A stretch of DNA of 32,419 nucleotides from a virus: positions 1-32,419 of IMG/VR virus record IMGVR_UViG_3300024346_000294. The stretch is one strand, 5' to 3'. A model generated the notes under the pieces. That model saw nothing but the letters and a program-made list of their open reading frames with translations. It was not told the origin of the DNA and ran no database searches. This document shows, one piece after another, positions 17,987 through 32,376 of the stretch. The translations under genes and the position numbers were made by a program. The first letter of the stretch is position 1; each line of letters begins with the position of its first letter.

Positions 17987-19696
17987 TTATTTACTTATTA
18001 AAAACTTCCCCAAAACTAAGTAATTCATATCACAATTATTGAATGTCCAAATTGCTTTTTGTGGGTCATTTGTCATTGTATGGTCTTTTAAATTGAATGA
18101 TGTATTCAATAAAATGGGTGTTCCTGTCAATTTTTCAAACTCTTTAAGTAACTCATAGTAAAGTGGGTTATCTTCTTTTTTTAGGGTTTGTATTCTGGCT
18201 GAGTTATCAACGTGTGTTACTGATGGTATATTTACACTATCTTTAACTTGTACTACTTGATTCATATATGGAACATCTTCTTCCGATGCAAAGTATTTTT
18301 GATAATCTTCAATTGTTACCGATGGAGCAAATGGTCTAAACATTTCTCTCTTTTTGACAACCTTATTAATCCTATCTCTTACATCTGGCAAATGTGGATT
18401 AGCTAATATAGAACGATTACCCAATGCTCTTGCACCAAATTCAGTTCTACCTTGAAACCACCCAACTATATTACCTTCGTTGATTAACCTTGCAACTTCT
18501 TTACACAATACTTGCGGTGTTTCATACATTACAATTGCATTACCTCTAACTCTTTTTTGTAATATAATTTTAAGTAATTCAGGGTTAGTCCATTCCTCAC
18601 CTAAATATGGAGATTGATTATCTCCACCTTTTACTTTTGGATTACCAAATGTTTGATGATAATGATATAAACATGCACCAATAGCAGAACCACTATCGGA
18701 TGGTGCAAATGGTATCCATACATTTTTAATTGATGTATATTTTTTTATCTTACCATTAGCAGTTCCATTATATGCACATCCACCTCCTAATACTAAATTA
18801 TCACATTCCCAAATATTAATAACTCTATTTATAATAAAATACAACATAGATTCATACCATCGTTGTAATGATGCTGCTAAATCTTTATGATGTTGTTCTA
18901 TTGGTTCATCTTTGAAACGTGGAGGAAAGCCAATCAAATCAATAAGTTTTTGATTAAACATATCCGTTTCCGATGTTTTATATGTAAAGTATTTCTGATT
19001 TATCTTTATAATATCAATATCATCTCCTATGTGTGCAATTTTGTCAAATATACTATGATATGTTTGACTTTCACCATAAGGTGCTAATCCCATAACTTTA
19101 TACTCTCCTTCATTTGGTTTAAATCCTAAATATGCAGTAAATGCTGAATAAACTAATCCTAATGAGTGTGGGAAATGTAGTGTTTGAATTTTATGAAATC
19201 CATTTTCATCACACATTGCAGCGTATATTGTATGAGATTCGCCTACACCATCTACTGATAAACCAATTGCTTTATCAAATGGTGATGTGTAATACGATAG
19301 TGCTAAATGGGAGTGGTGGTGTAATGTATATAAAATTTCACCGGTATACCCAATTGATTCCAATATTCCTTCTAAGTTACCTTCGGTTTCGTTCCATCTT
19401 TTAATAAAACGTCTCCACTTAGGAAAAAATGATTTTAATGGCCAATATTTACTTCCAATGGTTTGTTTAACTCTTTCAAATTTATCTTTTGGATTTTCAT
19501 ACCAACACACCATATCAACTTCATCAATTGTTATGTTTGCGTATTCTAAACACCATTGGATTGCTTTAAACGGAAAAGAACTATCATGCTTTTCGCCGGA
19601 TAGTTTCTCTTCTTCAATTGCACATATTACTTTACCATCTATAACTAATGCTGCTGCTGAATCGTGATAGAAAGCTGATAGTCCTAATTGTATCAT
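17987..19696 (-). CDS. Carbamoyltransferase, NodU/CmcH/TobZ family
   Basis: At 569 residues it has the usual family length. The N-terminal ASKHA-type domain opens LGLSAFYHDSAAALVIDGKV with the HDS metal/ATP motif (H11), then TLHHHSHLALSYYTSPFDKA and a GLSVDGVGE nucleotide-binding stretch near 155. GGGCAYNGTANGKI lies near 305. The C-terminal carbamoyltransferase domain has GWFQGRTEFGARALGNRSIL and KREMFRPFAPSV. Such enzymes make carbamoyl-adenylate from carbamoyl phosphate and ATP and move the carbamoyl group to a hydroxyl. In phages, members have been linked to modified nucleobases (carbamoylated hydroxymethylcytosine) and could also act on glycans; the substrate here is not readable. It starts 2 nt after the sigma-factor stop. 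Confidence 0.93.
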   Translation of the reverse strand: MIQLGLSAFYHDSAAALVIDGKVICAIEEEKLSGEKHDSSFPFKAIQWCLEYANITIDEVDMVCWYENPKDKFERVKQTIGSKYWPLKSFFPKWRRFIKRWNETEGNLEGILESIGYTGEILYTLHHHSHLALSYYTSPFDKAIGLSVDGVGESHTIYAAMCDENGFHKIQTLHFPHSLGLVYSAFTAYLGFKPNEGEYKVMGLAPYGESQTYHSIFDKIAHIGDDIDIIKINQKYFTYKTSETDMFNQKLIDLIGFPPRFKDEPIEQHHKDLAASLQRWYESMLYFIINRVINIWECDNLVLGGGCAYNGTANGKIKKYTSIKNVWIPFAPSDSGSAIGACLYHYHQTFGNPKVKGGDNQSPYLGEEWTNPELLKIILQKRVRGNAIVMYETPQVLCKEVARLINEGNIVGWFQGRTEFGARALGNRSILANPHLPDVRDRINKVVKKREMFRPFAPSVTIEDYQKYFASEEDVPYMNQVVQVKDSVNIPSVTHVDNSARIQTLKKEDNPLYYELLKEFEKLTGTPILLNTSFNLKDHTMTNDPQKAIWTFNNCDMNYLVLGKFLISK

Positions 19697-27445: not shown

Positions 27446-27946
27446 TTAAATAATTGATTTTGAATTAAATTTAATATTTGTATTTTTTAAAAACCATATT
27501 AATGAATAGCGATTACCTTTTGTAATTTTTGTTACTTCGTGCTTTATACTTACGGGAAATATATAGGAATTACCGGCGGATTTATCTAATGTAATATTTT
27601 TGTCAGTTGGATATAATAAAAAATCCCCACCATCAAAATTATCATTTAATAAAACTCCTACGGAAAACACCCTAGAATCCATATTATCATCGTGAATGCC
27701 AAAATAATCATTTGGCTCGTATATGTGGAAATGTAATTCCGGTCGTATCTCTATTATAGATATGCCTGTTTTTATTTCAAAAAAGTTTTTTAATTTTTCG
27801 AATATCCAATTAGTATCCGTATCTTTTAATATTAATAAAGATTTATAGTTTCTATCATCCGAATTCCAATATCGGTTGTCTGTTTTTATTAAATCAATAA
27901 TAGTATTACATTCATCTATTGTAAATATGCTTTGTTGGTAAATCAT
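27446..27946 (-). CDS. 2-oxoglutarate/Fe(II) oxygenase, prolyl-4-hydroxylase type (166 aa)
   Basis: The double-stranded beta-helix core is visible: HFHIYEPNDYFGIHDDNMD gives the HxD pair (H85, D87), GGDFLLYPTDKNITL a core strand, and FPVSIKHEVTKITKGNRYSL gives the distal His (H136) and the Arg that binds 2-oxoglutarate (R146). All key residues are present. These enzymes hydroxylate protein side chains or small molecules with O2 and 2-oxoglutarate. It overlaps the sulfotransferase by 4 nt (ATGA). Hydroxylation followed by sulfation of the new hydroxyl would be one logical use, but no sequence shows it. Confidence 0.88.
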   Translation of the reverse strand: MIYQQSIFTIDECNTIIDLIKTDNRYWNSDDRNYKSLLILKDTDTNWIFEKLKNFFEIKTGISIIEIRPELHFHIYEPNDYFGIHDDNMDSRVFSVGVLLNDNFDGGDFLLYPTDKNITLDKSAGNSYIFPVSIKHEVTKITKGNRYSLIWFLKNTNIKFNSKSII

Positions 27947-28536
27947 ATTACTGAATTTATCTTTACTCTATATTTTTTTGAATTATCTAAAAATTTATTA
28001 TAATAGATTTCATTATAATTAGAACCTATTGCTTTTAAAAATTCTAACATATTTTCTTTTGTTGAGTAAATATCTTCGTAATAAAACACTTTAGTATTTT
28101 TATCTTTAGCTAATGTGTGGAATTGTTCTTTCCAAAATAACATATGTTTTAATTCTTCATCTATAAATTTATTATGTTTTTTATCACTATAAACATATGA
28201 AGTATGCCAGGTATTGGTTGTTAAAGAATGTGAAAGACTTTCCAATTGCTCTTTTATATTTTTTCTATCTAAAAAAACAATTTTATCAAATGATTTATAA
28301 TAAATTTCATTTATTTCATTAATAGATATATTTTTTAAGTCAGGCGGTAATTGGTCGTATATGTGTTTTACAAATACATTTTCATATTGAATTATATGAT
28401 TGTATGTAAAATATCCTTCTCTACCATTTTTATTAAATGGTTCACTAAATGTTTTGATATCTGGGTTTGAGTATTTATAATACTCTATTATAGAAGTTGA
28501 GCCAGTTCTTGGAAAACATATCAACAATATTTTCAT
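27943..28536 (-). CDS. Sulfotransferase-like protein (197 aa)
   Basis: The N-terminus MKILLICFPRTGSTSIIEYY carries the 5'-phosphosulfate-binding loop (PRTGSTS, 9-15) of PAPS-dependent sulfotransferases. KIVFLDRKNIKEQLESLSHS near 85-104 fits the 3'-phosphate-binding strand-loop-helix. At 197 aa it is shorter than typical sulfotransferases (~250-300) but both cofactor motifs are present. It would transfer sulfate from PAPS to a hydroxyl on a sugar, peptide or small molecule. It lies between two 2OG oxygenases, 3 nt from one and overlapping the other. Confidence 0.82.
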   Translation of the reverse strand: MKILLICFPRTGSTSIIEYYKYSNPDIKTFSEPFNKNGREGYFTYNHIIQYENVFVKHIYDQLPPDLKNISINEINEIYYKSFDKIVFLDRKNIKEQLESLSHSLTTNTWHTSYVYSDKKHNKFIDEELKHMLFWKEQFHTLAKDKNTKVFYYEDIYSTKENMLEFLKAIGSNYNEIYYNKFLDNSKKYRVKINSVI

Positions 28537-28539
28537 AAA

Positions 28540-29175
28540 CTATATGAGATTGGAAGAATCGGATTTTGCATTGAATAGTACATTGCCAGCTAATACAATT
28601 CTATCATTTGTTGAATTTGGATTCACTTCAGGTCTATGCCATAATGTTCCACCAAATATGTATAAATACCCAGCTTCAGGCATTATCATAATAGAATCGG
28701 TTTGTTCATCATCCCCTCTTTCATTTAAAAAAATAAGCTTTCCTTCATTTCCTTCACAATTGTTTGGAACATCTACATAATATGTCCAAGTAAACGATGT
28801 AGTTAATGTTGGTAGTTCATAACTAAATTTAGAATGTTGATGATATTGGGAATCTGGATTAGATGCGGTGGATATAAAAATCCAACTATTTTGATACCCA
28901 CTAATTACTTCTTTATTAGATATAGAAGTATATACGTCTTTTACTATATTATAGCATTTATCTTTTATTTCAAATATACTTTTACTATTTGAAAGGTTTG
29001 TACTAAATTGTATACCAGGCGAACCCATTTCTTTTGGGTTAAATGGTATATCGCCAACCAAAAATTTTCTATCAATATCTATATCTTCTAATAACTTAGA
29101 AGTATCAATTCCATCGATTTTTATTTTATAAATTTTATGATGTTTAAAATTTATAATTTCATAACTGTTTAACAT
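28540..29175 (-). CDS. 2-oxoglutarate/Fe(II) oxygenase-like protein (211 aa)
   Basis: A double-stranded beta-helix is indicated by NSWIFISTASNPDSQYHQHS (H112, H114), TWTYYVDVP, GKLIFL, then MPEAGYLYIFGGTLWHRPEV (H180) and NDRIVLAGNVLF (R192). The first site is H-Q-H rather than the usual HxD, as in the phage-rich branch with an HxH motif that I recall as 2OG-FeII_Oxy_5. The substrate is unknown. It follows the 48-aa ORF at 29187-29333 and precedes the sulfotransferase by 3 nt. It differs clearly from the prolyl-hydroxylase-like enzyme at 27446-27946, so the two are not a recent duplication. Confidence 0.8.
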   Translation of the reverse strand: MLNSYEIINFKHHKIYKIKIDGIDTSKLLEDIDIDRKFLVGDIPFNPKEMGSPGIQFSTNLSNSKSIFEIKDKCYNIVKDVYTSISNKEVISGYQNSWIFISTASNPDSQYHQHSKFSYELPTLTTSFTWTYYVDVPNNCEGNEGKLIFLNERGDDEQTDSIMIMPEAGYLYIFGGTLWHRPEVNPNSTNDRIVLAGNVLFNAKSDSSNLI

Positions 29176-29186
29176 ATGGAATTTTT

Positions 29187-29333
29187 TTAACTTAGGTGTT
29201 TAGCTTTTATAGCAGATATAATAGATACTACTTTTGCTAATAGTGTAGTTTTATCGGTTTCGTTTGATACTTTCTTTACAAAAGCCGTTTTTTCAGCCAT
29301 TGCATATTTTTTATTTTTATTTACTTCGCTCAT
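29187..29333 (-). CDS. Small ORF, 48 aa, between the ATP-grasp/Hint gene and a 2OG oxygenase
   Basis: The frame from ATG 29333 to TAA 29187 encodes MSEVNKNKKYAMAEKTAFVK, then KVSNETDKTTLLAKVVSIIS and AIKAKHLS. It is Lys-rich, has no Cys, Trp or Pro, and its second half is a probable amphipathic helix. It fills a gap that would otherwise be a 176-nt empty space in a tightly packed operon, and it lies 18 nt after one stop and 11 nt before the next start, which supports its being real. A substrate or carrier peptide for the neighbouring enzymes is possible but not shown. Confidence 0.6.
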   Translation of the reverse strand: MSEVNKNKKYAMAEKTAFVKKVSNETDKTTLLAKVVSIISAIKAKHLS

Positions 29334-29351: not shown

Positions 29352-31001
29352 TTAATTTTTTGCACCTCCACCACAAATTTGCGCGTCACAACAGTATGGA
29401 CATGTAGAGTAGTAACTATAAGTACCGCACTGAAATGACCCTTCAGCACAACATACGCCACTACTATAAGCATAACCGTTATAGGAGTACCCATTACATG
29501 GTGAACCACAATACCAATATGAATAGTTACAACAATTATTCTGACACTGCTGCGCTGGGTTATGTTGTATCAACGCATATATAGGAGAAATAGATTGTTC
29601 TTCCATTGTAAGATACAAATCCGATTCTTCTACATCCAATTTATAAATAGTTTCTTTATTGTAACTGTATTGTATGGAACTTATCGTTTTTATTTCTAAT
29701 TCATTTGTTGTTGTATTTACTACAATTATATTATCATTTACACCCAATCCTCTAAAATTTATGAATCTAAACAATTCACTTGGGTCGGTAGATACCTTAG
29801 CAATAACAGTTGAACTATCTACATCGGAAAATATAGTACCATCATTTAATGTTATTTCCTTTAACCAAAATGTAACTCCTTCAAATGATTCTATATTAGT
29901 TACATTTGTATTTATTATTGAGCTTCCAATTGTTACATCATCAACAGATGCACTATATAATGGCATTTCATTATCACTCCATCCTAAATTGTTTAATTGT
30001 ACAGACTTCAGAGTATCACCCAATACTATATCATTTATATTTTTGAGAAAGCCATCTCCATCTAAAATTTTTGAATCGGCATCTACTTTATAATTTTTAA
30101 ATTTATTCGTATTAAGTCTATCCACTACTTTTTGTAGATAGATAGGTCTTTCCCAATATTGTAATTCGTTATTACTATCAAAATCTGCAGCTGCAGATAA
30201 TATAGTACTATTTGTATGTACATATGGTGAAAATAAATTCATTACCTCCAAATTAGAACCATATATCATATCAACACTCCTATAAGTTTGAAGTTTGTTA
30301 TTATACAAATCATTCTCATTTATTATATACTCTTGTAAAAGTGTATTAAATGGTAACGAACTTTTTAAATTAGAAAGCTCTTCGGCTGTATTTATTTTAT
30401 ATATTTTTGGATATTGTTCATAATTAGTTGTTGGATATCTTTCTTTAACAATAAAATTAGGATACTCCCCATTATCTCTAATAACTTCACCTATACTATC
30501 AATTCCCAATGTATCATTTACAAAATACGTCTTTGGTATAGAATTTACATCCGCATCATACATTAATTTTAAAAATTCAAAATTATCTTTAGCGTAAGTA
30601 TCATCAATTAATGCGGTTGAATCATATGCATTTCTAAGAATTAATTTATTAGATGCATCTTCTATAAATGGAATCGTTGTTGCTGTAGCTTCTACATTAT
30701 GTATTGTAAGTGAAACCGTAGAACTGCCAGAATAATATTCACTCAATATGGTATTAAATGCTTTAGGAACACTGGATTCAGCCATTTCTACATCGATGAC
30801 GGTATCATTCAATCCCATTGATTGATTTATAAATTCTATAACTTCAATACCATTTGATACCACAAACTGATTAAATGCTTCAATATCAAAATAATTATTA
30901 ATATCCCCAACAACATTTCCTACATTTGTATTTAATTCCAATATTTTAAAGCTACCATCTGTATCTTTTAGTAAATCCGTTGCTACTATTACTGCCTTCA
31001 T
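29352..31001 (-). CDS. ATP-grasp-like / degenerate Hint / Cys-rich tail fusion (549 aa)
   Basis: Three parts are visible. Residues 1-290 resemble an ATP-grasp enzyme: GSFKILELNTNVG (ELNTN, 22-26) is like the metal-binding E-x-N end motif, RNAYDSTALIDDTYAKDNFE and SIPKTYF (155-160) like the N-terminal lobe, NFIVKERYP gives a candidate ATP-binding lysine (K186), and LLQEYI (221-226) and R241 follow. The ELNTN motif comes before, not after, the lysine. Residues ~306-481 look like a Hint fold: VDADSKILDGDGFLKNINDI then VLGDTLKS at the start and IYKLDVEESDLYLTMEE with IQHN (478-481) at the end. The nucleophilic Cys is absent and Pro follows HN. Residues 486-549 hold 12 Cys among many Tyr and Gly. 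A late-type motif lies 19 nt upstream. The substrate is unknown. Confidence 0.7.
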   Translation of the reverse strand: MKAVIVATDLLKDTDGSFKILELNTNVGNVVGDINNYFDIEAFNQFVVSNGIEVIEFINQSMGLNDTVIDVEMAESSVPKAFNTILSEYYSGSSTVSLTIHNVEATATTIPFIEDASNKLILRNAYDSTALIDDTYAKDNFEFLKLMYDADVNSIPKTYFVNDTLGIDSIGEVIRDNGEYPNFIVKERYPTTNYEQYPKIYKINTAEELSNLKSSLPFNTLLQEYIINENDLYNNKLQTYRSVDMIYGSNLEVMNLFSPYVHTNSTILSAAADFDSNNELQYWERPIYLQKVVDRLNTNKFKNYKVDADSKILDGDGFLKNINDIVLGDTLKSVQLNNLGWSDNEMPLYSASVDDVTIGSSIINTNVTNIESFEGVTFWLKEITLNDGTIFSDVDSSTVIAKVSTDPSELFRFINFRGLGVNDNIIVVNTTTNELEIKTISSIQYSYNKETIYKLDVEESDLYLTMEEQSISPIYALIQHNPAQQCQNNCCNYSYWYCGSPCNGYSYNGYAYSSGVCCAEGSFQCGTYSYYSTCPYCCDAQICGGGAKN

Positions 31002-31039: not shown

Positions 31040-31309
31040 TTAAATAATTGATTTTTGAGTTTTACTTTTAAAATAATCTTTTTCTACTTCCAACCATTTA
31101 TTTAAAGGACAAGCATCATTTTCCATTGTGAATATCTTTTTACTAAGTGGACACCCACATTGAGTACAAACTACAATATTAAGCGTAGTTCCTTTTTTAT
31201 CACACGAATCGCATATATCCATTCGTTTTTCAGCCAACTCCGCTTGTATTGGGGTTGGGTTAGCTGCAGTAATCCAAGCTTTTGCTATTTTTTTAAGATT
31301 AATTCCCAT
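31040..31309 (-). CDS. Small zinc-ribbon-like protein (89 aa)
   Basis: CDSC (33-36), CTQCGC (48-53) and CPLNKW (67-72) give six Cys in the order CxxC...CxxCxC...C, a probable zinc ribbon. The pattern AxxRxxxCxxC ... CxxCGCPLxxK ... CPLxKW is familiar from small proteins of phages and bacteria with no established function. The N-terminus is basic and helical. It lies 5 nt after the gene at 31315-31617. Its location upstream of the ATP-grasp-like gene makes an accessory role in that block possible. Confidence 0.82.
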   Translation of the reverse strand: MGINLKKIAKAWITAANPTPIQAELAEKRMDICDSCDKKGTTLNIVVCTQCGCPLSKKIFTMENDACPLNKWLEVEKDYFKSKTQKSII

Positions 31310-31665: not shown

Positions 31666-32376
31666 CTATAAACTTTTATTCATAGTTCTAATTAATTCCA
31701 TAAATCCTAGCTGATATTTTTTAAAAGAATATATGTGAATATATGAATTAATAGTGTTCATTGGGAGTGAATTCCATCCTTTGTTATCCGATATTAGTTT
31801 TAATAAGGCTTGCTCCAACGTCAAATACGCATATTTTATCTCAACCCCACCATAGTTCTTATAATAAAAGTTTTTAATCGAATAAAAAGAATCTACATAT
31901 TTTTTCATTTTCAATGGGTCTTTAAATCCTATTATACCGGTATTATATGCTCCATTCCATTTAGAATTCCATTCTGGTAATATATCACCCACTCCCCAAT
32001 TCGATAACGCATTAATTGAATCTATATATCCTATTTCAGAAGTATCCGCAAAATCATATAACACATCATATTCTTTTGGAAATACCAATGGTTCTGCTAT
32101 AAAGATATCACCATCCATATGAATAAACTCACCCGTTTCATTTTTAAATACTTCAAACTTTGGCTCATCCCACAAATATGGTATAGTATCCTTTTTTAAA
32201 AATTTAACTTCATCAACTAAATGACCTAATTCATTAGCTCCTCTTTCATCTGTATATAATGTAATTGGATGAAATCTTCTAGCCATCTTAATTGAGCATT
32301 GATAAATATCCAATATTTTTTGTATATAGGTTTCATCATTAATTCGTGTTGTTGATAACGATTGAATTATTTTCAT
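31666..32376 (-). CDS. Glycosyltransferase-like protein with DxD motif (236 aa)
   Basis: EFIHMDGDIFIAEPLVF (84-99) has the DxD metal/sugar-nucleotide motif (D88, D90) after a beta strand, as in GT-A glycosyltransferases. WNGAYNTGIIGF (~140-155) fits the acceptor-side loop. The start MKIIQSLSTTRINDETYIQK and TLYTDERGANELGHLV (39-54) also fit families of small phage and Bacteroidota transferases. No signal or membrane segment is seen, so action in the cytoplasm is likely, on a host or phage glycan, DNA or protein. The leader is extremely C-rich on the coding strand. Specificity cannot be read. Confidence 0.75.
   Translation of the reverse strand: MKIIQSLSTTRINDETYIQKILDIYQCSIKMARRFHPITLYTDERGANELGHLVDEVKFLKKDTIPYLWDEPKFEVFKNETGEFIHMDGDIFIAEPLVFPKEYDVLYDFADTSEIGYIDSINALSNWGVGDILPEWNSKWNGAYNTGIIGFKDPLKMKKYVDSFYSIKNFYYKNYGGVEIKYAYLTLEQALLKLISDNKGWNSLPMNTINSYIHIYSFKKYQLGFMELIRTMNKSL

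Follow-up and report, generated by a model that had tools for sequence, protein, structure and literature searches.

A phage protein family that joins ATP-grasp-like and Hint-like modules to a variable cysteine-rich tail, and the tagged enzyme genes beside it

What would a phage make from a single polypeptide that appears to hold a ligase-type module, a self-processing fold and a cysteine-rich end? The question is raised by a 549-residue protein encoded in the window, the whole 32.4-kb virus record analysed here, which also encodes baseplate wedge proteins of a contractile-tailed phage. A first-pass annotation had proposed that an ATP-grasp-like ligase, a Hint-like autoprocessing unit and a Cys-rich cargo are fused in this chain, and the motifs on which it drew (E22-L-N-T-N26, K186 within FIVKERYP, QEYI at 223–226, R241, H480-N481 and 12 tail cysteines) were all recovered in place. 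We refer to the gene as the precursor gene; its parts are as follows.

29352..31001, minus strand: precursor gene, 549 aa with an ATG start, encoding a permuted ATP-grasp-like module, a Hint-like domain and a Cys-rich tail
30912..31001, minus strand: residues 1–30, a β-hairpin with D9 and E22-x-N24 (model strands 2–12 and 18–24)
30126..30911, minus strand: residues 31–292, the remainder of the ATP-grasp-like module, with K186, the hinge QE at 223–224 and R241
29559..30104, minus strand: residues 300–481, the Hint-like domain, whose last residues are His480-Asn481
29355..29558, minus strand: residues 482–549, the Cys-rich tail with 12 Cys, the predicted product

Domain architecture of the precursor family

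The window protein had no informative match in Pfam, NCBIfam, PHROGs or PADLOC, and thus none among the PADLOC models of anti-phage defence, and a full-length precursor profile found nothing relevant in a sequence search of the PDB. Searching with the single sequence identified one relative, present on two large contigs at 44% identity. Profile searches enlarged the family to 20, 23 and then 30 loci, a route guided by a neighbouring zinc-ribbon gene found the precursor gene in 50 of 80 loci, and a later scan gave 284 relatives, with 80 loci kept. The set analysed here is made up of 99 distinct proteins, identical ones having been removed, of which 57 were collected first and 42 are new. Neither the window protein nor four of its relatives nor two zinc ribbons gave a tblastn match among the cultured phages of INPHARED. 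One relative (L027, VHCC01000082.1) lies on a 3.7-kb contig that was binned into a Pelagibacterales MAG and is probably phage DNA, and a 211-kb phage contig (IMGVR_UViG_3300042892_005961) carries two separate precursor-family loci (L160 and L204).

The catalytic positions of ATP-grasp enzymes include an acidic residue in strand 4 and an ExN motif in strand 5 of the kinase-like subdomain, together with a Lys in strand 2 of the RAGNYA subdomain and an Arg in strand 1 of the kinase-like subdomain (PMC4431377). The matching residues of the precursor, D9, E22-x-N24, K186 and R241, are invariant in all 99 proteins, as is T25, and the hinge residue E224 is present in 85 of them; this conservation places the motifs beyond chance. 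In a predicted model of the protein (mean pLDDT 74.5) the catalytic residues fall on strands in the secondary-structure context expected of an ATP-grasp, with strands 183–187, 220–224 and 236–247 forming the region of K186, the hinge and R241. The canonical motif order is absent: D9 and the ExN hairpin, which correspond to ATP-grasp strands 4 and 5, stand at the N terminus instead of at the end of the module. Because the hairpin precedes the remaining motifs, the module would be circularly permuted, an arrangement that the first-pass annotation had missed.

Foldseek, which requires the same chain order, returned no significant match to this module in the PDB, the best probability going to a glutathione-synthetase-like effector. 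A fold search of BFVD ranked a tubulin-tyrosine ligase first (E 4e-3) and a D-Ala-D-Ala ligase third (E 0.1). Sequence searches of the PDB with the N-terminal profile, in its natural and in an artificially re-ordered form, gave nothing relevant, and hhalign paired the expected segments with RimK and GshB profiles at P of about 0.1–0.2, below significance. The proposed ATP-grasp identity is supported by the invariant catalytic residues, their strand context and the top viral fold matches, and weakened by the permuted order and by profile and fold searches that each stay below significance when taken singly. From the sequence and the model together, residues 1–292 are probably an ATP-grasp module.

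For the second module, the full model matched 44 PDB structures at E ≤ 1e-3, all of them intein, Hint or hedgehog structures, with TM scores for the Hint-like domain of up to 0.83 when normalised by target, which strongly supports the proposed Hint fold. The terminal His-Asn pair is nearly universal (His in 98 and Asn in all of the 99 proteins) and the block B His is retained in only part of the family. Position 1 is occupied by Ser in some members and by Asp in the window protein, and a Cys is absent from the aligned region around it in all 99 proteins. Peptide splicing, which the annotation had listed among the known activities of Hint domains, is thus unlikely, and we rejected it. Given the residue roles described in PMC4031507, retention of His-Asn without Cys1 suggests that cleavage by Asn cyclisation would be the only likely reaction, so that of the autoprocessing first envisaged, only a cut after the His-Asn pair stays plausible.

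The segment that follows this pair has an even number of cysteines in all 57 of the proteins collected first (6–12 Cys) and, in an out-of-sample test, in all 42 of those fetched afterwards (4–8 Cys). In the part of the same proteins that precedes His-Asn, even and odd counts stand at 22 and 35 in the first set and at 15 and 27 in the second. The first 57 proteins represent 40 clusters at 70% identity and 30 at 60%, a spread too wide for the even-Cys rule to follow from shared descent alone. Where close relatives differ in their tail cysteines, they differ by two. In 88 of 89 close pairs, conservation is lower in the tail than in either of the two domains before it; L010 and L041, for example, share 91% and 94% identity over those domains, and 46% over the tail. 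Tails range in length from 23 to about 110 residues, with 162 in one relative, and hold 4–12 Cys. The even counts and paired changes suggest fully paired cysteines, that is, disulfides, within a fast-changing segment. The idea of a Cys-rich cargo is accordingly not only retained but sharpened, to an even-Cys segment in 99 of 99 proteins that evolves faster than the rest of the chain. PDB sequence searches with two of the tails found nothing. Some of the spacing in the tails of L231, L211 and L201, of the form C...C...CC...C..C, appears cystine-knot- or hevein-like by eye.

A further C-terminal domain follows the Cys segment in 22 of the 57 proteins collected first. This domain matches PF13884 (peptidase S74) in 16 of 19 relatives tested (best 1.6e-6), with S1, D2 and K6 invariant, and its best match in the PDB is a neck-appendage protein. 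It begins directly after the Cys segment, and L024, which is without it, ends at exactly that point; neither the window protein nor the family's short members have the domain. In the pair L010 and L041 the S74 domain is 89% identical. The PHROG links of S74-bearing members are to virion structural proteins. Because some relatives carry this chaperone domain, the crosslinked virion part suggested by the first-pass annotation may still be what the protein forms.

A C-terminal tag on neighbouring enzymes

The precursor gene of the window is surrounded by genes on the same strand whose products end alike.

31040..31309, minus strand: zinc-ribbon protein, 89 aa, adjoining the precursor gene and ending in the tag QKSII
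28540..29175, minus strand: 2OG-Fe(II) oxygenase-like protein (phrog_81, 1.7e-14), tag end SSNLI
27943..28536, minus strand: sulfotransferase-like protein, with an N-terminal PRTGST seen in the sequence and no Pfam family, tag end INSVI
27446..27946, minus strand: 2OG-Fe(II) oxygenase (PF13640, 3.8e-10), tag end SKSII
31666..32376, minus strand: DUF6734 protein (PF20508, 8.3e-9), ending in MNKSL, a near-match to the tag

The precursor gene and the gene of the tagged oxygenase are separated by a 48-aa open reading frame (29187–29333, minus strand). Relatives of the DUF6734 protein are tagged in L111 and L128. The tag, common to many cassette proteins, has the form K-x-x-K-[TS]-[LI]-[ILF]-COOH with the core K-[TS]-[LI]-[ILF]-COOH, and this tagged modification cassette had escaped the first-pass annotation. 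The four-residue pattern ends 129 of the 481 ORFs in the first 25 loci, against a null of 1.2% of internal positions. Tagged members predominate in 21 of 148 sequence clusters, some of the clusters being distant members of one superfamily (for example, the 2OG oxygenases). About 20 unrelated families carry the tag. The precursor protein itself is never tagged.

The tag depends on the precursor gene. In an independent set of loci, 209 of 544 ORFs (38%) are tagged where the precursor gene is present, compared with 2 of 184 (1%) in zinc-ribbon loci that are without it. Most tagged genes are found no more than nine or ten genes away from the precursor gene, with a concentration at offsets +1 to +9. 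A general effect of composition was rejected on these grounds, tags being nearly absent from loci without the precursor gene and rare far away in the loci that have it. Codon choice inside the tag is that of the background, so the constraint acts on the protein; as the tag Ser also uses both codon families, an origin at the DNA level, in promoters or terminators overlapping the stop codons, was likewise rejected.

In almost every locus the precursor gene has the zinc-ribbon gene beside it. Without a precursor gene, the zinc ribbon ends two residues past its last motif (16 of 17 cases); with one, and only in such loci, 17–23 residues are added that end in the tag. In other phages (L071, L083, L101 and L119) an untagged zinc-ribbon gene is found directly before a tail-sheath-like gene.

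Across loci the cassette comprises 2OG-Fe oxygenases, proteins that are sulfotransferase-like by eye, SGNH hydrolases, glycosyltransferase-like proteins and others, including a Trp halogenase (PF04820, 2e-91), a SET protein (3e-12) and a radical-SAM-like protein (2e-5, under the curated cut-off). No significant correlation was seen between presence of the halogenase and Trp-rich tails (p=0.08). Elsewhere in the window, positions 17987–19696 encode a Nol-like carbamoyltransferase (phrog_1601, 2.5e-119), which may belong to the wider cassette, and L001 has a similar carbamoyltransferase gene just upstream.

Possible functions of the precursor and its cassette

The reading that we favour, and to which we assign an even chance of being correct, is a phage RiPP-like system in which tailoring enzymes are recruited by their tag to a self-cleaving precursor. 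In this precursor, a large leader with enzymatic activity would be joined through a self-cleaving hinge to a variable product rich in disulfides. Its permuted ATP-grasp module would probably be an active ATP-dependent carboxylate–amine ligase, whose substrate would be either the tail or a partner. The Hint-like domain, having lost its Cys1 chemistry, would most likely cut after Asn481 through succinimide formation and so release the C-terminal Cys-rich segment as a peptide product; in S74-bearing relatives, the other end would be freed by a second self-cleavage before the SD motif. The tagged enzymes and the zinc ribbon would dock on the precursor through the tag and modify it before release, with the tail as their substrate, and the disulfides would form once the tail has left the cytosol.

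As in RiPP precursors, a variable core here follows a conserved leader and is linked to tailoring enzymes. Several considerations count against this RiPP-like reading. The S74 domain, carried by 22 of the 57 proteins collected first, suggests trimerisation and a role in the virion, neither of which a small free peptide needs, and the enzymes could be acting on glycans and not on the precursor. The ATP-grasp assignment falls short of significance in each single search, the block B His is retained in only part of the family, and the halogenase does not track Trp-rich tails significantly. We extend the RiPP-like reading only tentatively to a general peptide-maturation machine of phages, in which a ligase-fused, self-cleaving precursor and a changing set of tag-recruited enzymes would release diversified, modified, disulfide-rich peptides.

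The main rival is a virion adhesin with an inert Hint-like fold, in which the even-Cys tail stays attached as a disulfide-locked receptor-binding tip, S74 trimerises the protein and the tagged enzymes decorate it. The 22 S74-bearing members and their PHROG links to virion structural proteins fit such an adhesin, high tail diversity is expected of a receptor-binding part, and even cysteine numbers suit an extracellular disulfide domain. It is hard to explain, however, why the terminal His-Asn should be the best-conserved Hint pair in an inert fold, why short members should lack S74 and have tails of only 23–62 aa, or why an adhesin should carry an invariant ligase-type active site, which would be unusual there. 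We consider the adhesin unlikely on balance.

The tag might alternatively be a substrate and not a docking peptide, its C-terminal carboxylate being activated by the ATP-grasp module and joined to an amine, so that the enzymes become attached either to the precursor or to some part of the virion. Its position at the extreme C terminus leaves that carboxylate free, carboxylates are the substrates of ATP-grasp ligases (PMC4431377), and tag and ATP-grasp gene are tightly linked. Such a reaction would, however, consume the enzymes stoichiometrically, and a docking peptide explains the same data; we regard a substrate role of the tag as very improbable. Equally doubtful is a glycan or surface-polymer cassette whose tag recruits the enzymes to another scaffold, with the precursor gene merely one more member: glycosyltransferase-like and sulfotransferase-like proteins, SGNH hydrolases and a carbamoyltransferase are common nearby and a related cyanophage cluster has been interpreted as serving capsule decoration or secondary metabolism (PMC7824862), but SET, Trp halogenase and radical SAM proteins suit peptide targets better and the tag vanishes where the precursor gene is absent.

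Relation to known systems

Taken with the RiPP-like reading, the locus resembles an assembly line for modified peptides, of a type not yet described, in a little-known group of phages. A literature search of open-access scope found no paper on this combination of domains and cassette. A common C-terminal tag shared by enzymes of about 20 unrelated families and tied to one gene would represent a new principle for an enzyme assembly line. Were the tails released, phages would offer a large and so far unexploited reservoir of modified disulfide-rich peptides; were they virion tips, they would constitute a novel type of phage receptor-binding part. Such cassettes could be located by means of the tag, which could also serve as a tool for recruiting enzymes to a substrate.

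Each part of the precursor has counterparts from which it departs. With ATP-grasp ligases such as tubulin-tyrosine ligase, the R2K clade and eukaryotic-type glutathione synthetase it has in common the D, ExN, K and R residues and the strand pattern, but its D...ExN hairpin is N-terminal, no family profile matches it and it is fused to a Hint domain. The fold and the terminal His-Asn are those of BIL and hedgehog Hint domains, whereas the precursor never has Cys at position 1, carries an even-Cys segment after the Hint domain and would be expected to undergo C-terminal cleavage alone. Many relatives share the SDxxxK start and the PF13884 match of the peptidase S74 intramolecular chaperones (endosialidase, neck appendage protein and MyRF); unlike in the known examples, S74 sits here after a Cys-rich segment.

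At the level of the locus, a cyanophage cluster with 2OG, halogenase and carbamoyltransferase genes (PMC7824862) offers a similar mix of enzymes in large phages, but the cyanophage 2OG genes that we checked do not have the tag, and the precursor has no relative among the cultured phages of INPHARED. The precursor loci resemble RiPP systems in their conserved N-terminal part, variable C-terminal core and adjacent tailoring enzymes. Proteusin RiPP systems include a leader-dependent Trp brominase (PMC10858898), and some precursor loci likewise contain a Trp halogenase. They differ from RiPP systems in that the leader is about 480 residues long, is built from ATP-grasp-like and Hint-like domains and is encoded by a phage, and in that a common C-terminal tag is carried by the enzymes and not by the substrate.
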